Origin: Haemonchus contortus
Lineage: Eukaryota > Nematoda > Chromadorea > Rhabditida > Trichostrongylidae
Length of the DNA: 64,000 nt
Direction of reading: 5' to 3'
Assembly: GCA_000469685.2 (NCBI GenBank)
Contig: LS997562.1
Coordinates: 26,136,076-26,200,075 of the forward strand
Shown here: positions 3,101-64,000 of the stretch, piece by piece
Position numbering within the stretch: position 1 is the first letter of the stretch
Layout: every line of letters begins with the position of its first letter
The notes under the pieces: model-generated
Databases searched by the model: none
What the model was told of the DNA's origin: nothing
Seen by the model: only the letters and a program-made list of their open reading frames with translations
Made by a program: the position numbers and the translations under genes

Positions 3101-6100
3101 GTGGCTTTTCATTGTCTTGCGAACTGTTATCTTATTTGACTCCTTGGACGTAGCAATTTATTTGGATTCGTAGCTTCATCGTCGACACGTTGGTAATGTG
3201 CAGCAGTGAGGAAACACGAACTGTTCATGATAGCTTTAGTTCTAACTGCTGCTTTTTAGATTGCCATATCGGATAATTTTTGGTTTACTGACTCGAGTCC
3301 CATTTGATACCTGATTTTGCTCTCACGGTGGCAAATGGTCAAACTGAGGATAAGGATAAGGAATGAGGATATTACGTAATGTCTATTTTTAGTTGGTGAG
3401 CAAAGAGCTCACTTCGGAGCAGCGACATGAGCGAGCTCTTATGATCAAACAATGTGAAGCAGAGTTACGATTAGAGGAAGCGAAACTAATGATGCTGAAG
3501 AAAGTCAAAGCAAGTCAGATGCTGGCCAATCAAAAGGTTTGTTTTGTGTTTTGTTGTTGTTCCTGCAAATGAACCAAATTGACATTTTTGGGTTTAATTT
3601 TCAATGTAGATAGGGGTTCGCCAAAAATTTCTTTGCATGTATTCATTCATGTTGCGGTATGGATGGTAATTTTTGCGTTTTGTGTCGATTCAAATATCTT
3701 GCGGCATCTCGGCTCTGCTTTGCCTTGTTTGCAGTTGAGTGCCATATCTGTTGTACATCAACGCTTTATGACTGCTTTTTATGATTATAAGAACTGCATT
3801 CCGAAATCTTGCCATTCCAACTGGTCACAGTATCTGCAAAAATTGATTGCTGTCGTTTAAAAACGATAGATATTCATTTCCTAAGTTCGGTTACCTTTTA
3901 TAAGTTGTCAGAATCGATTTCCAGCAGCTTCAAAGCTACTGCCTCTATGCGATTCTCTGCGTTTTCAGTTCCGCTTTTTAAAAGCGTAACTGAGTAGGAA
4001 GAGGACACTCCTTGTTGAATTCAGTCTCATCTTAAGGTGATCAGAATCAGCAAAAAATTGTTAATTTCTGGTTAAATGTACTTGCCAGAATCAGAGCATC
4101 TTGGCAAGATTGTCCGAGTAGATAAATTCCAGTTATGGCTTTCTCTTCGTAAGTTCGCCTTTGGTTCGAGGTTCCCGTTGAGCTCGCTATTGTTTCGTTT
4201 TGCTTTCCTTTCTTGTTTTGAAGATTCCGTCTACCTGAAATGTTCAATTAAAGTGGCTTTGGTAATGTCTCAGTACTTTTGCTAATATAGGTATTTGCTT
4301 TTTTGTAATTAGTTGCATTGTAAAAAGAGGTCTTAGAATTCTGAAGCGCGTCGGAGTGAAAAGATTTATAAGGAAATTAAAGATGGTCAGTGGTGATTAT
4401 TAGGTGGTACTGTCAGCTGGAATGATTTAGAGTTAACGTTCATAGTTTCCGATCACGAAGAAATTTTCAAAATAGTCCCTCAGGATTGATAGGTCTGAAA
4501 CAAAAGATTCGGAATACTTTATTTATTCAAGATACTTGGCATAATTTGGATCTTTTTTTTTGGCACAGTGTTATGCTCCAAATGATACTTTGGGTTCATT
4601 GTGATCATTTTCAGCTTCATGAGGCCAAGAAGGGAGTAGCTCATATGTCTCTCAATAACACCGGTGGTGCATACAAACCACTTGTGGCACCGCCCTTGAA
4701 CAAAAGCGGCTCCACTAATGGAAAGAGTAAGTGTTTTCATTTTGCTCGTCAGTTTTTATTTCCCGTAGTTTTTCTCCTCGGAAAAAAAAATAGGTATAGC
4801 TACCTTCTTGCATTTCTGTAAATATGGCATGTGCAGCTTACTTGCAATTTGGCAGTTCAAGCATTTAAGTGGGATTATCTGAAACCTTAAGAAGAAAAGA
4901 TAAGTTCTTTGGGTGTTAGAGTTTCTGGTTGTGATTAGGAAAATATTCGTCTCAAAAGCAAGACTACTATGGGCTATCAGATTTTTATAAGTAGATGTCA
5001 GAGCACATGCGGCTGAAAGAAAATTGTGGTATTGGTACAAGTTCGGTTTGATGTGATTAGATAGTTGATTCGTTGCTTTTCCGTGAGTGTTCTCGAGGTT
5101 ACAACAAGTGGGTGTGACCTGCGGCACACGAGTGTGCCAGGTGGAAATTCAATTACTCTAGTATATTTTAGAGAAGATAGGGGAAGTTTTCTGTCAAGAA
5201 TAAGCTTAGCCTCCTTCAACTGGAGTTTTTCGAACAACCTTCTCCTTTTCCTGTAGCTCTGAACGACCACAGCTATGCAATTGTGGATCTATTCAGCTTT
5301 GTAAAATTTCCTATGGGGGAAGGTTTGTCCAGGATTCGCTTTAGGGTAGTATTTTTACCCTTTGTTACAGTATACGAGAAATTATCAACGTTAGCTCTGA
5401 TAGCAGGCAGACAACTGCTTATGAGGAGCGCTTTTGTTGATAGTATTAGCTTTTCCTGCTCAATTTATACCTAACAAAAAATTAAGAATGAGAGAAATAT
5501 ATAGAAAAACTGTGGAGTTCGCATTATTCGTATGAGTAGCCTACCTTTGCTCGTGAAGCACTGACAGCCTGCATCATTCCAATGAGCTGAGAATATTTGG
5601 TTCTATGAGTAGAACACGACCTGAATAATTCTTCGTGATCGGATCGACGATTTCTTAGATTGATAGGAAATTGTACATGATCCCAAGTTAAGGGATTCAT
5701 GTACCCCTGAGGTCTGTTACTAGAACCATCATCATTCATCATCGAAAACCGCTTAAAGTTCTCACAAAGTCTTTGGATGTTTTGAATACCACTTAATCAG
5801 TTGTAGTGAGAAGCTGATTGGGCTTTTATACGTTAACAATGACATCTCAGGGGGTATACGAATCCCACAAATTGGAGTCACGTACAATCCCCTATCAATC
5901 TAGGAAAACTAGTTCCTGTCTGTCTATAGTGAACGAAAATAAACCTGACAGGAGTTTGTTTTAATATTGAAAGAATAAAATGCTCAGCTGTTGAAGATTA
6001 TTCATCTTTCCCATAGCGAATGACAGATGCTTTTCTTCATATCGTCTCTTCTGGATGTCGCCCAGGTCAACCGAACCTTCCTCTCTTTGCTACTTGTAGT

Positions 6101-51344: not shown

Positions 51345-53040
51345 CCTGTGGAATACATTGAATTAATGTTCGGGACTAGTGAGCCTATCATTGCCTTGTG
51401 GGAGAAGTAATTGCCTTCCATCTGTTGTTTTAGTCAACCTTGGCTCTACAAATGGGGTGGAGGAGGGGGGGGGGGTTCCGTTTTTAAGGCAGAATTCTGA
51501 AGTTTGTGATAAGATTCGACTTCGTAGCTCGTCTTTATACAAAAAAACCTACTGATTTGTGGGGAACAGATTTAGCAAAGCCGTGCTTTTCCCGTGTACT
51601 AAAGAAAAGTAGGTGCTAAAGTTTTTGTGGTCGGTCTGATCATGTTGTCTGGAATGAAAATTATTTGAGTTACCTCATTCATATAGTTGTAAGGGATTGA
51701 ATTGCCCTATAACCAGGCAGTTTTTGGTTTTTATTACATAAAATCGGGTAAAAAACAAAACGCACTCCAAGCTTAGACGCGACTTCCAGGTGGCACATTT
51801 GATGACGCGTCGTCAATCTCCCGATTCGTCGATTATGACTTACTTATGTGGCGCAAAGTACTACAAATGCGCCACCCTACCACGATGGTTAGTTTAAATT
51901 TACGTATGTTTGTACGACACAACGATAGTATTAAACTGACTGCGATTATTCGGTTATAATTCCATTTTGAGAGCAGCTTATGAGAATGTGTTCATGCATA
52001 CTGGCAGACTCGTTATGTTTTACGATATCAATCTCTTTCTTTTGTATACCATCCATGGATATTACGTTCACTGACTATTAGAGTGTCGTTCGGAAATTAG
52101 TCAGTCACAGCAGATAAAGTTCAGTGGGAAAGCTGATGGGCCCTGAATCGACAAATGGAAGGTACAGGACCATGGGACTGATGGCGAGGCGGTCAGGAGA
52201 TAGCGTCGTGAGATGGAACTCCTCTCGCAGGTGACTGCGACCCTCTGCGTTCCCAACAAATTTGAGGTAAACAGCATGAGGGAAATAATGGAAGTTTTCG
52301 TGCAGATTCCTGCAAATAAAGCGAAGAAATGCGCCTGATTTGAAGGATTTTAGAGCTTGAAAAGGTATCGAGTGGGTGTTCGCACGGGGTTATCACAGAA
52401 TTGGCATGGAAAGGATATTTGGACCAGCTATGAGCTGAAATAATTGCGTAAGCACTGGCTACAGTGATCCAAATAATCGGAACTGACTCCTTTCGTAGGC
52501 ATTAATAATTTCAGCTCGGTCGCCAGTCGGTACTTTGCACGTCGATGACTTGTGCCATAGTGTTCGTGTCCATAGCGAACAGGCAAAAAGAACAGTTTTG
52601 AGTTGAAAAATTCCATTATACGAGGGCAAGTGAGAGGGTCATGTTTACATTTCTAAGGGAGATATCATAGCATAGAAATTTTTCTCTCGAAGTAAGAAAA
52701 AGTCGCCTGATCGCATGGTCTGTATGGATGAGTGTACAGGCGAGCGTACTATTCTTCATCGGGACACTATTGAATGGTGTACTCATGTAAGAGATACTCG
52801 GACGTCCTGACGCCGGCGTCCGGGCAGAATATGGAGGCGCCCACAGTCGCCATGGGTCACTATTTGTTCGAAAGCTCAACCTTCACTATTCCCTGGAAAT
52901 TCAATCTATGTGTTTGCTGTATCTGGTGCATCATCAACTCTTTGACGACAATGCGGCTCACACTTGAATCGCGCTGTCTCAAATGTTAAGGATGCACCAA
53001 ATACAATGTAGCACGTAGGTTGAACAGGAATAAACAAAAA
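51345..53040. other. Intergenic, nothing recognised
   Basis: An 11-base G run lies at 51465-51475. No gene or RNA was recognised. Confidence 0.3.
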
Positions 53041-53046
53041 GTCAAC

Positions 53047-53107
53047 CAATGAGAAGAGTGCGGCTCACAGTTGAATCGTTCAACTATAAGCCGCACTCTT
53101 CTTATTG
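53047..53107. repeat. Imperfect 29-bp hairpin
   Basis: 53047-53075 and 53079-53107 are inverted copies with three transition mismatches and loop TCG. The arms contain AGAAGAGTGCGGCT. A related AATGCGGCTCACACTTGAA lies at 52950-52968, so it may be the end of a larger repeat. Confidence 0.8.
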
Positions 53108-53440
53108 TTTACAGTTTTGATTATTTTTTCCTAAAGTTTTTTGTACTTAATAAACCCACAATTTTTAATAATTGTAAACAAAAATGAGCTAAAGAAAATT
53201 TTATTAATTTTTGCAGACTACAAACAAATTCTGTCATTCTGCTGATCATTGCACTTTTTGTACATTTCTTGGAAATAGTCGATGCAAAATGAGTTTCCCA
53301 TCTGGTGCACTTAGTAATGGCTCACCTTGTATTGCTAGAAACGTAAACATGCCCAAAGTATCGATATAGTTGATCGTAACAAAAACATCCGAACTGCGTT
53401 TATTGTTTTCTAGAGCTCTTCACGAGGTTTGTAAATGAGC

Positions 53441-53490
53441 TTTATTAGGCTGACGTTTCGACGGGGTCGCCTTCTTCAGAGCCTGAAAGG
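53441..53490 (-). ncRNA. Hammerhead ribozyme motif, copy A
   Basis: On the minus strand: CTTT-c-AGGCT (stem I 5'), CTGAAGA core, A, GGCG-ACCC-CGTC (stem II with one G-U pair), GAA, ACGT (2-bp loopless stem III), C (cleavage site), AGCCT-aat-AAAG (stem I 3'). The core is intact. Confidence 0.75.
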
Positions 53491-53714
53491 ATCATTACAA
53501 TTTGTGACTATCCGGCCAAACGCCTCCACTGCCCTTCTGAAGTTCGAGACCCCCAGAGCACGCAAGTGATTAGAGGAGAACTACCCACCGTAACTTTTGG
53601 ATTCCCCGAAACCACCCAGTAACCGACGATTCTTATCCATCTGATCCAAATCCAGTCTCGAACTTCAGAAGGGCAGTGGAGGCGTTTGGTCGGACAGTCA
53701 CAAATTGTAATGAT

Positions 53715-53765
53715 CCTTTCAGGCTTTGAAGAAGGCGACAGCGCCGAAACGTCAGTCTAATAAAG
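53715..53765 (+). ncRNA. Hammerhead ribozyme motif, copy B (core mutated)
   Basis: It has the same layout, but the first core base is T (TTGAAGA) and the stem I 3' strand reads AGTCT. Stem II is GGCG-ACAG-CGCC. It is probably inactive. Confidence 0.65.
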
Positions 53766-53854
53766 CTCATTTGCAAACCTCGTGAAGAGTTCTAGAAAGT
53801 AATAAACACAGTATACAACTATACCGAGGTTCACAGAAAGCCGTACTTGGAACT

Positions 53855-54705
53855 TTATCCGAACTGCATCCCGAGCCCTCCTTCCAGGCTGCGGCCTGTT
53901 GCTGGTTAGCAGACTCTTTCATTTTCCAGACGTCATTCAGTGTCACTCATTTTGAGGTATTTAAGTCCTTTTTTCTTCACTATTCCATTGTATATCTTCC
54001 AGGAGGTTACCAATGCTGTCTGTGTCATCAGATGGGAGAAAATTCTGAGATACAACTCAATACTTCTCCTCACAAATTGAGTATAAGCAGACATTTGGTC
54101 GCTTTGAACAACAAATTCCATAACTTTATTGAAATCTTCGACTAATTGCGATTTGCCGTTGGGAATGATGACCAACATGTTTCGTAGAAATAATGAGTGA
54201 ATGGCGTTTATTCTCACGGATCAGCCACTGAATCCTTCCTTCCTTGAGGGCTACACACCTGCGTAGATCTAGGTTCTCCATGGGTAACCATCTTTACAGA
54301 CTGAGCTTAAGAGATTTTATTTCATAATTGCGCAGGTTGGAAGGGATGTATTGCCCAAAGAAGTGGTGGTACTAATGACTCATACATGCAAATTTCTTTT
54401 TTCGATCTGTAAACTTCGCACACTAGGCAGTTCGCGTTGAACAGAACAAAGGAACTATTTGCACAGCGTCTTGCCATCAAATTTATTATTATCGACGAAG
54501 TGATAAGAGTTTGATAGGTGCTCAAATCACGTGTCACTTTCTCAGTAATCGAGTGCCCACCACTTGCAAGTCTGGTGCTCCCAGCTCATGCACCTGCACT
54601 ACTCCTGTTTGTATGCAAAATCTGATGAATTTGTTGACTTCCCAGGGTAAGTATCATGAAAATAAGGAACTCTCTTCCCAATGACGCTCTCTGATGCTCC
54701 TCCTC
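53855..54705. other. Intergenic, nothing recognised
   Basis: A 94-codon minus frame (53933-54217) and others have no recognised domain. Confidence 0.3.
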
Positions 54706-54712
54706 TCTATTA

Positions 54713-55282
54713 GGTTGATGCATAATTACTGCGAATTTTTTACCCAAGTTTCCACTTAAAGAAACCAGTAGGAATATTTAGCAAAGTCATTTCCAAATAA
54801 TCACTCGGGAACGCGTCCACCATCTATGTCAAGCTCTGCTTCTCATTTGCTGAGCAGTCGAAATCCATAGGCGAAGAGGTTTCGATTTTCGGAAGCGGCC
54901 CACGCCTTGACTTAGGCCATCAAGACTTCCATTCGTCGAAAGTTGTGTTCGCCAGCCAATTTTTCGACGGGAGATTGACGTGATAAGCCATAGGAGTTTC
55001 CGTTGGTGAATATGGCAACGTAGAAGTAAAAGCAAGATTCCATCCCCTATTCGGCTTTGGCTGATTGTTCTATCACCGAGGAGTTCGTTGAGATCAGATT
55101 GTGCCACCCTCGGACCTTTCTCGAATTAATAGAGCATAATGTGGCGTATACGGAGATTACTTTTTCGACATATCTCTATTAGGAAAGCAAGAAGATTGTT
55201 CCCACTGAATACCGAATTCAATATCCAAATTGTATCGAGAGAAAATAACCCGCGAGAAATCCGCAATAATTAAGCATCAACC
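54713..55282. mobile_element. Non-autonomous mariner with Hsmar1/cecropia-like ends
   Basis: The left end GGTTGATGCATAATTACTGC (54713) and the right end (CGCAATAATTAAGCATCAACC, to 55282) are inverted copies with two or three mismatches, and both are flanked by TA. The consensus resembles mariner ends of the Hsmar1/cecropia type (GGTTGGTGCAAAAGTAATTG). The 570-base length is under half of a full element. The minus-strand interior (open at 54829-55107) shows no clear transposase motif. Confidence 0.75.
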
Positions 55283-55289
55283 TATTATT

Positions 55290-57490
55290 TAGTTCTTCAA
55301 AAACCAGTGGAAGCATTTTTCCTTCAAAATATGGTTCGCAAATATCAACTGGTCCATGGCAACTATCATGTGGATTAAATTGTCGAGTGAATACCACGTC
55401 ATCGTAAACTTCTGCATCACCAATTCATCCGTCTTCACTCTCGCTGCCTGATACAGGTGAATACTCATTGGTATCAGATACCCTATCCTCAAGTAGGATC
55501 AAGGCTCCTCTATATCATCATGGTATTCGACCAATAAGCTTTCATACCACTCGCCGAATCATCTACTGTAGGCTCCTCCATTTTTGACTACTAAAGCTAT
55601 GTTGAGTATGAAAGTAGGATTATCGAGAGTAGATTACTTGTAACACCCCAATTTATACCTATTTGGAACTGAACAATAAAAAAAGTTTGAAAAAAAGCAG
55701 AGCTTGTTTATACTTGAAAAAAGAACCAACCGTGGGACAGCACGGCTCAACGTTGAGCCGCGAAAGCGGATATCTTAAAACGTCCCTCTCCAGGCATGCA
55801 AAAAGGTGTTGTGCTGTCGTCAGAGGGTTGACGATACCGTCATAACACTTAGGTATGTATGTACGTCGACCCTAACGGTTTTGAAAGTCGCCGCGGAACC
55901 ACAGGCCGTGGGAATTCGGGCAGAAGTTCCGCTATCCGTCTCATGCTGAGAGAGCTAGGTAGTCTTTTCTACCGTAAACAGTACCTTTGGGGATTAACAA
56001 GAGGTAAAACATGTTCATCGTAAGCTGAAATTTTCTGGAGCAGATATCGTGGAATCTCTGTGATTTACAGGAAGCTCTTCACATCTGATTTATGCCTGTA
56101 CTACGATTAACCTCTAAAAATGACAATTACCACGTCTCTTGCCCTTTGAATCACAGTCCCTTATAGCATCCCACAATGACTCCTGAAGACATAGCTCCTA
56201 CAACAATGTAGAGAACATCATCGTTATACTCTGAAGGAGATTGGATGCTCGAAGAATTCACTTCGACACTTCGAAACGGTTTAAAAAGAATTTCATTTGT
56301 GAGATTATGAAACTAAGAATGCAGTGCCATGAACGCAACACACACTTCAGCATCATTTAGAACACTAGTTGATGTCGCTGCTTGGAGCTCCACTGTCTCG
56401 CAGCTGCTAAATATATTTTAATACTCATAAATCACCGCCATTACATTTATCGCACAATTCTTCACGCTTACCTGACTGTTCCTGCAATTACCATTAATAG
56501 TGAGGTCTTTTGGAAAACCATTTAATTCTGGCGACTTCCATCGAACAACGAAATCAGAAGGTGGTTGGGTGCGCAATCTCACCAAATTGTAAATTAATGG
56601 GATCTATACAATTCCGAAGAATTTCCGAAGAATTTTGATCCGCAGTGCAAAAAACGTTCAGCAGGTGATTTTATAGGATTGTGTCGTCGTCAAATTTCTT
56701 CATGGGCAATCGGAACATCACACCCATCATCATCCAGGTTTGTGATCTTTTTATTTCTCGACCTAATGAGTTTCTAACTTGCTGGGGTAAAGTATAAGAT
56801 TATCTGCATAGAGACGGATTCATCGAAATGTCATCTCAGCGTATCAATTCACGCCGGACCGCGCATATCACCTGGCGAGCATAAAACTCACGAGTGTGCG
56901 GCGTTTTGCTCAACACGGTTACATGGGCATAGGATCTTGTGAATGAAAGGCGACCCCAATTTGCCGCGCATGGAAGCTAGTAAAAATTATGTTTTCTAAA
57001 ATTATGCGTACTTCCGTTATACTACGGGACAAGATGTAGCTGAAGGTGCATAATTATTGCACAAGTCGGACTGCCTTTCTACAGTCAAGTTTCCACTCCG
57101 ATGGATTCAATTCTCTTGTTGGTTTACTCGCGAAAGGTCCTATTCATCGATAGGTATCTTGCTTAGTCGTCCAATCCTCTGTACAGTACCTACTGATGTT
57201 GCTGAATAATAATGAAAACAATATCGAAGATAACGCGATCATCGCATATGGTTTTTCTTTTCATAGTTGTTCGTCTCAAACAGAGCCGTAGATGGCTGGC
57301 CACGGAAGAAGGGCGACATTCATAGAAGGTTCTAGGAAGACAAAAACAGATTGAAATATTACGCTCTTTGGTGGCACAGTAAAGGTCTGGCACTGGTACA
57401 TGGTGTGGTAGAAAGGATGTGTGGTCTTAAAGTGTGTGGCAAAATGGGATGCTAAAAAAGCAAGGATTTCTGGAAGGCAAACGTCACTAG
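55290..57490. other. Intergenic with one dispersed repeat
   Basis: 55743-55760 is a perfect 18-base palindrome (CGGCTCAACGTTGAGCCG). 55905-55985 repeats the block at 43757-43830. Nothing else was recognised. Confidence 0.4.
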
Positions 57491-57716
57491 ATCTTGCCTA
57501 GTCGCTCTTTGTCAGTTGCCTTCGATTCCTGTACACTATTTTCTATGATCAATTCAGATCCCACTGAGACAAATTTCGCATCACCCTCACAGGGCAAGGA
57601 CACCACTGTGGATATGAAAATCGTAACGAACGCAGTGACTTCGCCTTATATGGTCCCTTATCAGCCCTTACCAGCTATGGTCGGTGTCGCGACGAGCGTT
57701 CACTATACGGGGCACG

Positions 57717-57873
57717 ACGATGAAAAGAAGTTGTGGGGGTTTGAACGCCGCCGTAACCTCCGAGAAGAGCACAAGGGTACTGCGCTTGCCACTGTCGCTT
57801 TGCCACGGTGTTGGCGGTCCTCTTCCTTGTGCGGTGCCCCTTGGTGTTGTCTGCGTCCCTGCGATCCAGTTAC
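57717..57873. repeat. Dispersed repeat, copy 2 (partner at 13707-13863)
   Basis: The blocks match those at 13.7 kb. A 134-codon plus frame (57494-57898) covers it, but part of that frame is repeat and no domain is visible. Confidence 0.55.
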
Positions 57874-57909
57874 AACAACCTCATGGCCCAGCGCTTAAAT
57901 ATGACCCTG

Positions 57910-58970
57910 CGCTATCCCTATGACACTGTGATTAGAGATTAAGAGATTAATGTAAGCAAACACGTCATCACTAATGTTAAATCCGTGGCATGTAATATGT
58001 ACTCTACTGCGCATGGAGATACTCGTGATGGAGATATACTCCTCTTGCTACACAACAAAACATGAAAGAAAAAAAGTGGCTTTATGCCTATTTACAAAGC
58101 AAAGGTGAGATTAACCAAAAGATCCTACGGGATGGTACCTCACCTCACTAGGGGTCGGCAACGTGCATTAAACCTTCTGCTCATGCACAGTGGCGTTAGC
58201 CGGGGGACAATCGACCGGTCGCCACTATCAGCGGAGCAGGAGTTCGCACCCCACTCATCCATACGACCCCGGGATTCCACCTTCCATGCGCTGCGCATCT
58301 GGGGCTGTCCGGGGAATGGACAGCTGCGTAGAGGGATATCACCATCAAAATTATAAATCTCACACGTGGTCATGTGGAATAATCCTCCTCAGCTTATGGG
58401 TCTTTGATAGAGACTGCGCACATCCTGTGATCGTCCGATTACGTAGAAAAGTCAGTAGGAGTAACTGACATAGGGAATGCGGACGAATAACTTAGAGTTA
58501 GCGAGGGAAAGTCGAAGATGGTTAAGGAACCATGCAGAGTTCCAGCCGGATCATGCGCGTATATAAGTTGAGACTGACTGTCGATATGTCCTTTTTTAGG
58601 CCATCCATTCGCATCCGATGATACGCAGGCAAAGGGCTGCGGTGTAGTTGCGCATTGGAACCTACTCGGGCACTCTGATGACCGTCCGAATCATAGGCGT
58701 TGTAGGGACTTTGCGCGTGTGATGTAGTGCGACAGCCGCAGTGGATGACAGTGCGCGAGGAGGTCGTGCGGAAGTCAAGTCGGCTTCTTTCACCAAATAT
58801 TCACAACCCGCATCGCCTAGGATCGGGGGCCCTCGGTTCATGAAGCTGCTTATCGTCCCAGACAACACTTTCGGTCACCTATCGTCAGTATTGTCACCGT
58901 GTCAGTATTGTCACCGTCGCCTGCATTCCTTCTTAATTTGATTGAGATCCAGAGCAATAGGAAATATGAA
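57910..58970. other. Intergenic, nothing recognised
   Basis: It contains a GC-richer patch (58150-58340) with a short match to the island at 48.8-49.2 kb. No gene was recognised. Confidence 0.3.
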
Positions 58971-58979
58971 TTCCAATAC

Positions 58980-59100
58980 GCATACCAACCAAACACCGAC
59001 ACACACATACCAACAGACACGTGACACTCACATACCTACCCACCGCCACACGTTTAGACTTACAACAACACACGCCAACACAAGCGCCGACACCCTCACA
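58980..59100. repeat. AC-rich low-complexity stretch
   Basis: It is a degenerate ACAC/CCAAC-rich strand of about 120 bases, poor in G. It is a simple-sequence remnant and not a clean microsatellite. Confidence 0.6.
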
Positions 59101-59164
59101 ACTATAGCGAAATGCTATGTTACGCGATTCCATTTTGCTCTTCCGATTATTATAACTACACAAC

Positions 59165-59392
59165 ATGCTTGAAGTGTCAAGAAATGTTCAGGTGGACCAC
59201 GAATCAAAACTACCAAAGATGGAACTTTTCAAGAAAGAAAACTTCGTTTTTGTCGATGATGATGGGTCCTGCAACGCCTCCGCAGTAATCCAGATCAAGT
59301 GAGTTATTCAAGCGTTAGAACCTCGGGTCGCAACGAGAGGGATTGTTGCTAATTAGTTTAGGAATGAGACTACCGTTACGCGTCACAAATGA
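59165..59392 (+). CDS. Possible two-exon small gene or fragment, MSP-domain-like
   Basis: An ATG at 59165 opens a frame preceded by an in-frame stop. It reads MLEVSRNVQVDHESKLPKME and then LFKKENFVFVDDDGSCNASA to a strong donor (ATCAA|GTGAGT). A 63-base intron (59299-59361, ending TTTAG) joins in phase to NETTVTRHK and a TGA, 54 codons in all. The pattern K-x2-F-x8-S-x-A-x4-K/TN-T resembles the first strands of nematode MSP-domain proteins. A whole domain needs about 110 residues, and the second half is not seen downstream. It could be a truncated paralogue or chance. Splicing signals are good; the family call is weak. Confidence 0.35.
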
Positions 59393-59399
59393 TAAGAGC

Positions 59400-60550
59400 C
59401 AAGAAAGCATAACAATAGCTAAGGTCCTCTTTACACTAGCCAACTCTCTCACCGGCATAGATTCCCAAACTGTTTGACCGGAAAAATATGGAGTGCTCTT
59501 CGAGGAACACTGAAATGGTTGGAGTGACGTTGTTCATATGCTGCAATGCTAATTGTCGATTTGCTCGAGCGGACACCTGTAACGTCTTCACTCGCACCTG
59601 TCGTAGGCTTATACAGTTCAGTGAACGCTCGCTATTCGATGAGCAAAAAGGAAACCTATTCTTCTTCAAAGACTCCGTAGAGAGTCTCAACATAAATCTC
59701 GTGGCTATTTTGTGTTCTTTTGATATTACGAGGTATCCAGCCAGTCCAACGGCCCACCTATGATGTCCTGCCCACATGATTTTCGATTCCTTGTCGTACG
59801 TCCGATTCATGAGGCATACCTGAAGGTATCATAGCAAAGGGCTCAGTTCCGAATGATCTGTGTCTACTTTAAAACTTCCTCAATGCTTATTAGTGTGTGG
59901 AGGTAATTTAGTGGCATGTATTGCGCATGTATGGTCACGGATCCAAATCCCGGATCGATATTCGCCTAGATCAACATCATTCCGTCTGGAAGGATAGAAG
60001 CACGAATCATCACACCGCAAGTCATTGTTTGGAACACTGCGCATTCAATACGCCACTACGACTTTGTGTGGAAGTAGGATGCGGGGCGCACTCTAAACGA
60101 GATCGATTAACGCCAAAAGACTTTGCCCTTTTTGAGCTCGAGTTTTTTGACGAATAGGTGAGTGCGGAATCAGAGCAAAGGGCTCAGGTTCGGATGGTCT
60201 CTGTCTTCGTCACTAGTTTTTCGATGCTTTTCAGTGTTCTCCAGTGCGTAGTTTGCTTCTGCTCAACTCTGGAGACTGTTCATCAAATGACTCTCCGACG
60301 TAGGAGCGCGTGGCTGGAGCATTCGAAATGGTCACCCCTCCTGAAAGATGCACCAGGAACTGGTTGTTATCCATGAACACATTCTTTGTTAGGTTTGGTT
60401 ATAAAGCGGTTTTTCCATGACCGCTGTTGAACCGAGTCAGCATTCAATCCACCCGCGTGATGTTCAAAGTTGTAGGCTGAATCTCGTCAGTAAGCTAGTA
60501 GGATTTTCCCTTCCATTTTTTTTGCATTTCATTTGAGTCACTGGGAAATA
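59400..60550. other. Intergenic, nothing recognised
   Basis: AGCAAAGGGCTCAG with a diverged continuation occurs at 59835 and again at 60176, so this contains a two-copy degenerate repeat. Open frames lack domains. Confidence 0.35.
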
Positions 60551-60638
60551 CGGTCCATGAACGGCTTTCTATGAACCTCGGCATGATTATATTACTGAGT
60601 TTGTTGTTGTCTTGAACTCTTCACGGGTTTTTAAATAA

Positions 60639-60690
60639 CCTTTATTAGGCTGACGTTTCGGCGGAATCGCCTTCTTCAGGGCCTGAAAGG
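60639..60690 (-). ncRNA. Hammerhead ribozyme motif, copy C
   Basis: The CTGAAGA core, stem II GGCG-ATTC-CGCC, GAAACGTC and stem I 3' AGCCT-aat-AAAGG are intact. The stem I 5' strand reads CCTTT-c-AGGCC, so the pair next to the core is lost (C against A). Confidence 0.7.
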
Positions 60691-61001
60691 ATCACAACAA
60701 TCCGTGATTATCCGACCAAACGTCTCCACCACCCCACTGAGTTCGAGACCCCCAGGGCATGCAGGTCATCGAAAAGGGAACCACTCACCGTAACTTTGTG
60801 GATTCCTCGAAACCACCCAACTAGTAGTGGTAGCAACCGACCACTGTCAGCGGGGGTACGTCTTCATTAAAGTCTGTGAGGGAAGGCCAATCTTATATAA
60901 GGCCGTAGCTCCCGTGTGATTGCGAGGCATTCTTCGCTACGATTCATTTTGGGATCGGTGACCTGTATCCAAAATGCCTCGAAGGTTTTACGCGCGCACA
61001 C

Positions 61002-61452
61002 TTACGACTCCTGTGCTGTGACCTCCACGGTGACCTCAAAATCGTCTCCGTTATGCTTCTGAATTCGATGGCTCCCTAAGACAGTAGACTTTTTCAATCG
61101 TCTCATTCCATCTATGTGCTCCTTGACCCTCACGTGAAGTGGTCTTGCCGTTTCTCCAATATACTCATCACCACAAACCCGGCAAGTAATTCTGTAGACC
61201 ACTCCAGACATGTTACAATCACCTTCCCTTCCAGCTGGACAAACCACACAGTTTGAGGTCGTACATAGGCCATCGTATATCCTGTTACGAATCAAGCTCT
61301 TCTTTAGATTGAAGAGTGGTACATTTACAATAGCTACTGAATTTTCCGAACCCGATCTCTTCGAGCACTTTCTAATGGAGGCGCTGACCTCATCAGAAAT
61401 AAATGGTGGTACAAAAGGAGTCTTGCCTTTAATCGAGGTACTACCATGTCTA
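61002..61452 (-). pseudogene. PLE GIY-YIG endonuclease domain, copy C
   Basis: The frame is open from the junction through FISDEVSASIRKCSK, then a Cys-rich linker CTTSNCVVCPAGREGDC, then GVVYRITCRVCGDEYIGETA (the GIY and YIG motifs as VVY and YIG) and RPLHVRVKEHIDG. It ends at a TAA after TAQES, where copy E reads CAA. About 40 codons of recognisable C-terminus follow the stop. In PLEs this endonuclease sits after the reverse transcriptase and nicks the target; the RT is missing here. Confidence 0.85.
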
Positions 61453-61985
61453 AAATAGCACGCGATATAGCTTGGTCCAATGGCTACTACAATTTTCCAA
61501 CTTCACGTAGAGCTTCTTCTGGTGGTGTGATCCTCAGACATGGTAGTACCTCGATTGAAAGCAAGACTTCTTTTGTACTACCATTTATTTCTGATGAGGT
61601 CAGCGCCTCTATTAGAAAGTGCTTGAAGAGATCGGGTCTGGAAAATTCAGTAGCTATTGTAAATGTACCACCCTTCAATCTAAAGAAGCGCTTGATTCGT
61701 AACAGGATATACGATGGCCTATGTACGACCTCAAACTGTGTGGTTTGTCCAGCTGGAAAGGAAGGTGATTGTAACATGTCTGGAGTGGTCTACAGTTTTA
61801 CTTGCCGGGTTTGTGGTGATGAGTATATTGGAGAAACGGCAAGACCACTTCACGTGAGGGTCAAGGAGCACATAGATGGAATGAGACGATTGAAGAAGTC
61901 TACTGCCTTAGGGAGCCATCGAATTCAGAAGCATAACGGAGACGATTTTGAGGTCACCGTGGAGGTCACAGCACAGGAGTCGTAA
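61446..61985 (+). pseudogene. PLE GIY-YIG endonuclease domain, copy D
   Basis: The 179-codon frame begins with an ATG that belongs to the end of copy C, so the start is an accident of the junction. It contains ARDIAWSNGYYNFPTSRRAS, the linker CTTSNCVVCPAGKEGDC and GVVYSFTCRVCGDEYIGETA. A TAA plus one extra G after TAQES breaks the frame. The C-terminus (FWIQVTDPKMDRREE ... to 62122) follows in another frame. The RT is absent. Confidence 0.85.
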
Positions 61986-62395
61986 GGTGTGCGCGCGTAA
62001 AACCTTCAAGGCATTTTGGATACAGGTCACCGATCCCAAAATGGATCGTAGGGAAGAATACCTCGCAATCACACGGGAGCTACGGCCTTACATAAGATTG
62101 GCCTTCCCTCACAGACTTTAATGAAGACGTACCCCCGCTGACACTGGTCGGTTGGTACCACTACTAGTTGGGTGGTTTCGAGGAATCCACAAAAATACGG
62201 TGAGTGGTTCCCCTTTCGACCACCTGCGTGCCCTGGGGGTCTCGAACTTAGTGGGTTGGTGGAGACGTTTGTCGGATAATCACAGATTGTTATGATCCTT
62301 TCAGGCTCTGAAGAAGGCGATTCCGCCGAAATGTCAGCATAATAAAGGTTATTTAAAAACCTTGTGAAGAGTTCAAGACAACAACAAACTGTGAA
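61453..62395 (+). mobile_element. Penelope-like element, 5'-truncated copy D
   Basis: This is the inverted partner of copy C. It begins about 95 bases further upstream in the element than C does, so the two are separate truncations joined at their 5' ends and not a simple fold-back copy. It ends with TTCAAGACAACAACAAACTG. Confidence 0.85.
62297..62348 (+). ncRNA. Hammerhead ribozyme motif, copy D (stem III mutated)
   Basis: The core CTGAAGA and stem II GGCG-ATTC-CGCC are intact, but stem III reads ATGT instead of ACGT and the stem I 3' strand reads AGCAT. It is probably weak or inactive. Confidence 0.65.
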
Positions 62396-62399
62396 ATAC

Positions 62400-62970
62400 G
62401 TTTGAGGTCAAGTCGCCCTGCCAAACCATCCGTATGTGACGACTTTCTTGCATAACAGTATTGTGAGGCCCTGGTCGTGAAACTGTTTTAAAGCTCAAAA
62501 GGCGTCCGGATACATTCATTAGGGACGCCTTGGCCGATCAGAAGTTGGAATTTGCTTTTGTTTTCACATGTCGAAGTCCATCTTTGGTTCAATCAATGTT
62601 TAAATTGAGCGGCAACTCGTGAAGTTCGAATCCCTCCAACTTAGTGGATATAACTGATCCCACTCGGAACCTTAGCTGTTGAGGTATCGAAACTGTTTCG
62701 TTAATTCGTTGAAAGCATCACATCTCAGCCTTGCAACTGGTGAATCTCTTCAGATGTTGCGAGCGCTCTTCCATACCTGGTGGCTTTCGCTCCAATGCTG
62801 CTCTATCTCATCTACATCTTCCTTAACCGCTTTTCAGCACAACTTCGCAGTGCGAATGTCGAGTGCGAGTGCGAAGGTGGAAAACTCCTTACAGCTCATA
62901 CAATTCTACGTTGAGGTACCGCCCGAGAATTATCGAAGAAAAACGTCCTCTGGTAGTTAATACTTCTAAG
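62400..62970. other. Spacer between PLE copies, nothing recognised
   Basis: A 93-codon plus frame (62679-62960) has no recognised domain. Confidence 0.3.
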
Positions 62971-63060
62971 TCTGTTCCATGTACGGCTTTCTATGAACCT
63001 CGGCATGATTATATTATGAGTTTGTTGTTGTCTTGAACTCTTCACGAGGTTTTTAAATAA

Positions 63061-63112
63061 CCTTTATTAGGCTGACGTTTCGGCGGAATCGCCTTCTTCA
63101 GAGCCTGAAAGG
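63061..63112 (-). ncRNA. Hammerhead ribozyme motif, copy E (best copy)
   Basis: On the minus strand: CCTTT-c-AGGCT, CTGAAGA, A, GGCG-ATTC-CGCC, GAA, ACGT, C, AGCCT-aat-AAAGG. All stems pair fully. Stem I has two 5-bp blocks separated by a C/AAT internal loop. Stem III is only AC/GU without a loop, as in the minimal type I hammerheads known from PLEs, which are thought to act as dimers. Position 7 is A, and one unpaired A precedes stem II. Confidence 0.8.
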
Positions 63113-63285
63113 ATCATATCAATCTGTGATTATCCGACCAAACGTCTCCACCAACCCACTAAGTTCGAAACCCCCAGGGCACGCAGGTGGTCGAAAGGAG
63201 AACCACTCACCGTAACTTCGTGGATTCTTCGAAACCACCCAACTAGTGGCACCAACCGACCAGTGTCAGCGGGGGTACGTCTTCA

Positions 63286-64000
63286 TCAAAGTCTGTCAGG
63301 GAAGGCCAATCTTATATAAGGCCGTAGCTCCCGCGTGATTGCGAGGCATTCTTCCCTACGATTCATTTTGGGATCGGTGACCTGTATCCAAAATGCCTCG
63401 AGGGTCTTACGCGCGCACACTTGCGACTCCTGTGCTACGACCTCCACGGTGACCTCAAATACGTCTCCGTTATGCTTGTTTATCCGATGGCTCCCTAAGG
63501 CAGTAGACTTTTTTAAACGTCTCATTCCATCTATGTGCTCCTTGACCCTCACGTGAAGTGGTCTTGCCGTTTCTCCTATATACTCATCACCACAAACCCG
63601 GCAAGTAATTCTGTACACCACTCCAGACATGTTACAATCACCTTCCCTTCCAGCTGGACAAACCACACAGTTTGAGGTCGTACATAGGCGATCGTATATC
63701 CTGTTACGAATCAAGCGCTTCTTCAGATTGAAGGGTGGTACATTTACAATAGCTACTAAATTTTCCAAACCCGATTTCTTCGAGCACTTTCTAATGGAGG
63801 CGCTGACCTCATCAGAAATAAATGGTAGTAGAAAAGGAGTCTTGCCTTCAATCGAGGTACTACCATGTCTGAGGATCACACCACCAGAAGAAGCTCTACG
63901 TGAAGTTGGAAAGTTGTAGTAGCCATTGGACCAAGCTATATCGCGTGCCATTTCAAGCGACTCTTTTCGCTCTTCCTCCCCAGTGCAGACCTTCCTAGCG
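63286..64000 (-). CDS. PLE C-terminal region with GIY-YIG endonuclease (partial, open at the window edge)
   Basis: The frame is uninterrupted from the window end to a stop at 63286, about 238 codons. It includes ARDIAWSNGYYNFPTSRRAS, a segment ending NVPPFNLKKRLIRNRIYD, the Cys linker (CTTSNCVVCPAGREGDC), GVVYRITCRVCGDEYIGETA with RPLHVRVKEH (GIY-YIG core and conserved Arg), and a tail ARKTLEAFWIQVTDP with ELRPYIRLAFPDRL. The tail is lost behind a stop in copies C and D. The protein would nick DNA for retrotransposition. Residues upstream of ARDIAW (KVCTGEEERKESLEM) continue in frame, so the ATG at 63951 is not the true start. Confidence 0.85.
   Translation of the reverse strand, partial: ARKVCTGEEERKESLEMARDIAWSNGYYNFPTSRRASSGGVILRHGSTSIEGKTPFLLPFISDEVSASIRKCSKKSGLENLVAIVNVPPFNLKKRLIRNRIYDRLCTTSNCVVCPAGREGDCNMSGVVYRITCRVCGDEYIGETARPLHVRVKEHIDGMRRLKKSTALGSHRINKHNGDVFEVTVEVVAQESQVCARKTLEAFWIQVTDPKMNRREECLAITRELRPYIRLAFPDRL

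Follow-up and report, generated by a model that had tools for sequence, protein, structure and literature searches.

How Penelope-like elements (PLEs) insert, why their copies are arranged head to head, what their tail is and what the hammerhead does are the questions behind the analysis of a stretch of 64,000 nucleotides of the Haemonchus contortus genome (contig LS997562.1, positions 26,136,076 to 26,200,075; the window), in which a sequence-only reading had placed five hammerhead motifs of one family at PLE ends. The motifs lie at the positions claimed, a core pattern with at most three mismatches giving five matches in the window and 0/100 in shuffles: copy A at 53441..53490 (minus strand, core 53452-53479), copy B at 53715..53765 (plus strand, core 53726-53753), copy C at 60639..60690 (minus strand, core 60652-60679), copy D at 62297..62348 (plus strand, core 62308-62335) and copy E at 63061..63112 (minus strand, core 63074-63101). 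Each stands at an outer end of one of three insertions with head-to-head arms, an arrangement that the sequence-only reading had missed, and every insertion is flanked by a target-site repeat. Insertion 1 (53398..53855) consists of two head-to-head arms holding the 3' end of the element only, the short-ended one with copy A and the long-ended one with copy B, between the repeats ATCCGAACTGC at 53387-53397 and 53857-53867. Insertion 2 (60554..62390), with copy C in its long-ended and copy D in its short-ended arm, has its arms meeting near 61452 and the repeat GAAATACG at 60545-60552 and 62393-62400. Insertion 3 (62974..64000), with copy E in its long-ended arm, leaves the window and reaches about C1:26201647, the site of the second, short-ended arm; its border string ACTTCTAAGTCTGT starts at 62962, the final two letters overlapping the insert.

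The tie to PLE ends was borne out by the protein content, since the C-terminal (GIY-YIG) portion of a PLE protein is encoded, at 87-99% identity, within the insertions of copies C, D and E. Insertion 2 has it in the left arm at 60870..61454 on the minus strand (tblastn, 90.8% of 195 aa), and in the right arm at 61452..62118 on the plus strand, in two pieces (92.7% and 86.7%), GIY-YIG itself being weakly matched there (E 0.04, under the cut-off); insertion 3 carries the C-terminal 237 residues at 63289..63999 on the minus strand (99.2%). Copies A and B lie in stretches without coding sequence, which match the 3' end of L031, a complete relative from the same genome, at about 84% identity. The window copies retain the C-terminal part of the PLE protein only, and the whole element is seen in L031, where RVT_1 scores 40.5 bits, above the cut-off, and GIY-YIG 22.0 bits, just under the cut-off of 22.6: a PLE of one ORF, with reverse transcriptase (RT) and C-terminal GIY-YIG, both domains being found also in relatives. 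Proteins of rotifers and of vertebrates are among the matches. The genome holds 5285 to 5477 candidate PLE stretches per protein query, of many families and some with open full-length frames; tandem units measure 2988 and 2989 nt, and the pLTRs formed by tandem or partial-tandem units were seen, as were target repeats and tail variants. The ribozyme core lies 59-77 nt upstream of the AUG in 35/40 start regions, and in tandem copies the ribozyme stands at the unit junction, before the AUG of the next ORF.

Since five copies descended from a single family prove nothing by their likeness alone, the motifs could have been plain repeats, or matches by chance, rather than hammerheads, and the silence of Rfam would agree with this. 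The covariance search proposed with the sequence-only reading came out in two ways: the Rfam models gave no hammerhead match at the gathering score, nor at E <= 10 in searches of 11 kb, of 66 nt and of 351 nt, whereas a covariance model (R1) whose 19 source hammerheads come from this genome, all outside the window, matched all five copies. Of its training rows, 17 come from other protein families and two (L211, L215) are diverged relatives of the window family; in the search of the 64-kb window at E <= 10 it found exactly the five motifs, with E from 4.8e-19 to 6.5e-25, and none besides. The missing loop of stem III may be the cause of the Rfam silence. The Rfam matches at low thresholds, among them SNORD51 and, over the inverted repeat of insertion 2, a miRNA model, were set aside as artefacts.

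Across 32 hammerheads of the same genome, whose rows are related, changes in stems I and II compensate each other, the opposite of the outcome that would have spoken against the sequence-only reading, and the core pair C3-G8 also changes in a compensated way. Of 320 cells, 91.9% are paired, with changes on both sides in 7/10 pairs; compensated cells number 28, against 5.5 in shuffles, counts which, the rows being related, are not probabilities. Slid control structures are paired in 18-47%, and RNAalifold, unaided, recovers 7 of the same pairs. Further standard pair types show no excess over shuffles (13 vs 12.5; 247/500). These compensated changes across families, together with the independent R1 test, make the motifs more than repeat likeness or chance, a reading that is left with hardly any probability; as judged from their sequence, all five are hammerheads of the minimal type I form and candidate self-cleaving ribozymes. 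Two of the three features that had been called specific to the window family, the third being the outer stem I block, proved general, namely A7 (A in 25, C in 5 and G in 2 of the 32) and an additional base ahead of stem II, present in 32/32 (A 26, C 6). Stem III consists of A15.1-U16.1 and C15.2-G16.2 only (C15.2 in 31/32, G16.2 in 32/32), without a loop, so that the ribozyme probably works in dimeric form or helped by a protein; the palindrome ACGU would allow a dimer stem.

The grades of decay described from the sequence were correct in outline, with changes seen in B, C and D and copy E intact. The core letters CUGANGA ... GAAA ... UH are complete in A, C, D and E; copy B deviates by C3U and has a G-U in stem I, copy C is without the first pair of stem I, copy D carries C15.2U in stem III and has lost one stem I pair, and stem II of copy A contains a G-U. 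By itself, copy E folds with the bipartite stem I and with stem II formed and the core open (-17.4 kcal/mol, z -2.57), an energy equalled by 2/200 shuffles; as well-folding shuffles number 5 of 200 for C, 25 for D, 54 for A and 78 for B, and the energies of A, B and D, matched by so many shuffles, therefore lend these three no support by themselves.

The insertion ends follow a rule, in that past the ribozyme cut site one outer end extends for 53-69 nt and the other for 98-107 nt in 18/18 of the two-armed insertions measured. Neighbouring opposite-strand pairs are head-to-head in 31/32, and the shared border strings are of 7-15 nt in the 18 inserts, against 3-7 nt in 305/306 mismatched borders (9 nt in the remaining one), the 7-nt repeat of L032 falling inside the mismatched-border range. 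Such inserts could arise by self-priming, with one copy folding back and being copied on itself, and PMC3846280 favours self-priming on an antisense template for the PLEs of Adineta, from palindromes at inverted junctions. The arm breakpoints nearly match in some inserts (L038, L039), and the arms of young inserts are near-identical, with 0-3 differences (W3, L032, L034, L035, L036, L040, L041, L042), as self-priming would have it. However, fold-back predicts one and the same tail on both arms, whereas the ends differ in 18/18; the arm breakpoints are mostly far apart, by up to thousands of nt; and the sole difference between the arms of insertion 3 is an allele found in 6/24 of the arms that cover the site, as if two templates had been used, at one site only. 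A fold-back origin of the second arm is thus disfavoured by the unlike ends and the distant breakpoints, and we regard self-priming as quite improbable.

Downstream of the ribozyme, a conserved helix is formed with the codons that directly follow the AUG, and it encloses an AC-rich loop. In copy E it spans 62997..63050 on the minus strand, ACCTCG (63045-63050) pairing with CGAGGT (62997-63002) and the loop holding the AC-rich stretch and the AUG. The helix was found in 58/60 start regions, its arms change together between families, and an arm finds its own complement in 24/24 and a foreign complement in 1/72. The short insert ends lie in the loop of this helix or at the AUG. The two countable rules, that a two-armed insert has a short and a long end and that the AUG helix covaries, separate two-template priming from self-priming and lend themselves to testing with the published Anolis in vitro system.

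Accordingly, our preferred reading, held with a probability of roughly 0.75, is that these are type I hammerheads of GIY-YIG PLEs which insert by two-strand priming with differing starts, on RNA uncut at that ribozyme. The PLE protein would bind the RNA region of the helix and the AC-rich loop and make a staggered cut of both target strands; reverse transcription would be primed from both 3' ends, on RNA uncut at the ribozyme of that end, the short end arising where one strand begins, in the loop or at the AUG, and the long end where the other begins, about 40 nt beyond; and head-to-head joining of the two cDNAs would produce inserts that have a short target-site repeat and, near most outer ends, a ribozyme. 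In this explanation the fold with its covariation, the end positions, the flank repeats and the uncut ribozyme in genomic copies are based on sequence, while we infer that the protein binds, that priming takes place on both strands in a coupled way, that the ribozyme acts as a dimer and what role cleavage has. Cleavage would part the start-site region from the upstream unit and may thereby divide the RNA between message and template. A bolder version, advanced tentatively and with more doubt than belief, would have the two-strand insertion coupled, with a built-in asymmetry by which each half of the insertion complex takes its own RNA start site, the AUG helix fixing which synonymous codons follow the AUG and the hammerhead serving as an exit switch from the template pool.

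It is also conceivable, though rather unlikely, that the hammerhead fold is kept as an RNA structure for protein binding or start-site choice, with self-cleavage weak or unused in the life cycle. Genomic copies retain the ribozyme and the sequence past the cut site, so that their templates were uncut there; a clear 5' end at the cut site was found in none of 60 start regions, and the genome thus gives no sign of cleavage (L200 has a 5' end near the cut site, which may be a decayed ribozyme). Catalytic mutants of the Anolis PLE still insert, with no RNA ends at the cut site (PMC11167929), and the motif is unrecognised by Rfam. Some families carry core departures expected to harm cleavage, U4C (L219, L221) and C3A (L218), which, like the missing 5' ends, counts against the preferred reading. 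Against a fold without cleavage, the catalytic residues G5, A6, A9, G12, A13, A14, A15.1 and U16.1 are invariant in 32/32 and position 17 is G in none of the 32, while C3 is kept in 27/32, U4 in 29/32 and G8 in 29/32; moreover, in L231 and L232 the catalytic pair C3-G8 is replaced by U3-A8, an exchange which PMC3088659 reports as natural and active.

Hammerheads at PLE ends are a known class, and PLE-linked forms with a minimal stem III had rightly been called established: PMC6155905 and PMC7229834 describe the minimal hammerheads of Cervera and De la Pena (2014), said to occur in all available PLE sequences, and these share with the present motifs the type I order, a minimal or missing helix III and the location in PLE repeats, whereas the host here is a nematode. 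Poseidon PAc of Anolis carolinensis (PMC11167929) has in common an ORF with RT and GIY-YIG, tandem units, a hammerhead near the ORF start, an internal AC-rich stem-loop start and two start sites bounding the tail; its protein cleaves and extends both strands, starting inside the AC-rich stem loop, and its hammerhead requires protein, a precedent in favour of the mechanism proposed here. However, the PAc ORF starts at stem II, whereas here the AUG lies 59-77 nt past the cut site; in PAc the AC-rich loop is found inside the ORF, 111-118 nt from its start, rather than at the AUG, which the helix spans here; and the PAc assay found the start sites of top and bottom strands alike, whereas each two-armed insert measured here has one end per kind. 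This lack of a strand difference and the position of the loop are counted against the proposed mechanism. The Penelope families of Adineta vaga (PMC3846280) likewise have pseudo-LTRs, an inverted pLTR lying head to head, 8-10 bp target repeats and a 31-bp tail at one inverted pLTR; their tail is described as optional, whereas here one end is with and one without it in 18/18 two-armed inserts, and self-priming, unlike here, is proposed as the origin. Among titles and abstract openings on nematode PLE hammerheads, tails, two-strand priming and an AUG helix, neither a strict end rule nor an AUG helix appeared.

Single-armed inserts occur as well (L031, L183, L184, L186, L193), and L182 and L188 have no simple fit to the two-armed scheme. 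Hammerhead patterns elsewhere gave, among the matches listed, some in viral contigs and 19 stretches in genome contigs, which are presumably matches by chance.

The hammerhead copies of the window are arranged in head-to-head pairs (A with B, C with D, and E with one beyond the window, at C1:26201537), each between flank repeats, and among the matches listed, 31 of the 32 pairs of opposite-strand neighbours within 6 kb show the same order, the sole other pair being the gap between the second (C/D) and third (E/partner) insertions of the window. The tail query, itself short-ended, yielded 876 candidates, the best 40 of which were scored and gave, with the window, 27 insertion contexts; both ends were measurable in 18 independent inserts, as well as in L191, which duplicates L190. 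In all 18 (and in L191), one arm ends 53-69 nt and the other 98-107 nt past the ribozyme cut site, while equal random dealing would give 18 unlike pairs out of 18 with a probability of 2 to the power -18, roughly 4 in a million. The right end of L192 was read from its match rows, the automatic call having picked a stray match, and the short arm of L187 has only 38 nt and lacks the ribozyme. The remaining eight contexts lie outside the two-end measurement: L031, L184 and L186 are single-armed with a long end, L183 and L193 single-armed with a short end, L188 has a long end plus a second arm some 10 nt in length, L182 has a short end with the other end aberrant, and the insert of L194 runs past the limit of the stretch compared.

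The arm breakpoints are mostly far apart. The own borders of the 18 two-armed inserts share strings of 7-15 nt, against 3-7 nt (one case of 9) in 306 mismatched borders, where the strings may count letters common to the tail and the 7 nt of L032 fall within the mismatched range. L190 (C5:11870500-11880000) and L191 (C5:11665700-11675200), about 205 kb apart, carry the same two-armed insertion within matching flanks, a segmental duplication. Just before the first window insertion (A/B), an imperfect inverted repeat lies at 53029-53125, with 47-nt arms of 81% complementarity and a 3-nt loop.

The head-to-head order, the target repeats, the unequal tails and the independent arm lengths would all follow from priming on both strands, with a single start site for each. 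The Penelope-like element (PLE) protein of Anolis cleaves and extends both strands, starting inside an AC-rich stem loop (PMC11167929). However, no start-site difference between the strands was seen in that in vitro system, so the coupling of short and long ends found here is unexplained by the Anolis assay (PMC11167929); candidates for its basis are the pair of protomers in a dimer and the order of the strands, first versus second. PMC6155905, PMC3846280 and PMC11167929 already describe the hammerhead class, pseudo-LTRs, insertions in head-to-head order and the presence of a tail on one of the inverted pseudo-LTRs, in agreement with the sequence-only reading that PLE-linked minimal hammerheads are an established class. 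Neither the strict rule of one short and one long end nor the helix described below was found in the accessible literature on nematode PLE hammerheads, PLE tails and inverted inserts, two-strand priming, and an AUG helix or AC-rich stem loop, a scope that does not extend to the main paper of 2014 or to most subscription literature.

The complement of the letters following AUGC was found about 36-47 nt upstream of AUG. With six letters, ACCTCG is accompanied by CGAGGT in 10/10 own sequences and 0/14 others, ATCTTG by CAAGAT in 5/5 and 0/19, and ATCTCG by CGAGAT in 2/2 and 0/22; the CCAGGT families gave no six-letter match (0/7), while the five-letter ACCTG with CAGGT occurs in 7/7 and in 0/17 others. 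Over the five-letter test, the own complement was present in 24/24 cases and a foreign one in 1/72, the 24 sequences being a selection from 60 start regions (L215, a 25th, was too short). All 24 encode Met-Pro-Arg; the codon changes are therefore synonymous, and the far arm changes to match. The helix occurs in 58 of the 60 start regions, some of them near-duplicates, and is absent from L204 (rearranged) and L273. Free folding gave it in many sequences, not all, and it was not seen in free folding of longer reference pieces. In the window family, counting from the cut site, AUG stands at position 68, which places the short ends in the helix loop or at AUG; the long ends fall 30-40 nt inside the ORF.

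The genome searched comprised 283.4 Mb in 7 contigs, including the window. The five hammerhead motifs proposed from sequence alone were recovered with the 28-nt core at up to 3 mismatches (5 matches in the window, 0 in shuffles). The covariance check divided: the Rfam hammerhead models matched nothing in the window at gathering score, nor up to E 10 on pieces of 11 kb, 66 nt and 351 nt, whereas a model comprising both stem I and stem II, built from 19 hammerheads of the genome outside the window (17 from other protein families, plus the window-family relatives L211 and L215, of 82% and 74% DNA identity), matched the five copies only, at 59-75 bits, with nothing further at E <= 10. RF00163 had no match over the whole genome, which is weakly informative since control genomes were likewise silent. 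Stem III consists of two pairs without a loop, which may account for the Rfam silence.

Further PLE families were obtained with the protein queries P0008, P0014 and P0015, each with more than 5000 candidate stretches genome-wide (5285, 5426 and 5477, with 50 or 51 of each being scored); open full-length frames are present among those scored. A hammerhead-like motif was found in 19 of 20 stretches taken past ORF ends, L224 being the one without it. In an alignment of 32 rows (five of the window and 27 others picked as distinct), 91.9% of 320 cells were paired over ten named pairs, outer stem I being outside this cross-family count, compared with 18-47% in slid structures. Both sides had changed in 7 of the ten pairs, and compensated cells numbered 28 versus 5.5 in shuffles, counts that are not probabilities because the rows are related; further pair types showed no rise (13 versus 12.5). 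RNAalifold without guidance recovered 7 named pairs, 5 with compensated changes. Across the rows, pairing in stems I and II is kept despite change. C15.2 (31/32 rows) and G16.2 (32/32) form a near-invariant pair that preserves the palindrome ACGU, which would suit dimer action.

In L231 (127-154, minus strand) and L232 (258-285, plus strand) U3-A8 replaces C3-G8, a compensated core change; the exchange is described in PMC3088659 as a natural, active variant, and was also seen in L260 and L261. L218 carries C3A, and L219 (362-389) and L221 (60-87) carry U4C (CCGANGA), which would be expected to impair cleavage; these changes would count against full activity in every family. U4C is common to whole PLE families, occurring also in L244-L246 and L248.

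The core lies 59-77 nt upstream of AUG in 35 of 40 stretches preceding full-length ORFs, including L264, where the 5' strand of stem I is missing; of the others, L239, L258 and L263 are truncated (the last two being one sequence counted twice), L257 is decayed and L274 is deleted in the motif. In the wider family of the window, the ribozyme is kept in 16 of 20 stretches (with core changes in L209, L210 and L213), L200, L202, L204 and L212 being truncated, rearranged or ambiguous. Since most start regions keep the ribozyme, the genomic copies come mostly from RNA uncut there, and no clear case of a PLE 5' end at the cut site was met in the 40 and 20 start stretches. In L200 a PLE 5' end lies near the cut site, next to an inverted repeat roughly 18 nt long, and may be either a cleavage product or a decayed ribozyme. 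The closest H. contortus protein match of the element (P0002) has 90% identity over 56% of the query, which points to that species or a close relative as the host. The L031 array has three ribozymes at spacings of 2988 and 2989 nt, with the flank repeat GACAATGGAATG, and its ORF scores above the Pfam cut-off for RVT_1 and slightly below it for GIY-YIG. L188:3057-3186 holds two short inverted hammerhead pieces from another PLE family, of the CTGACGAAGGCGATTGGCC type.
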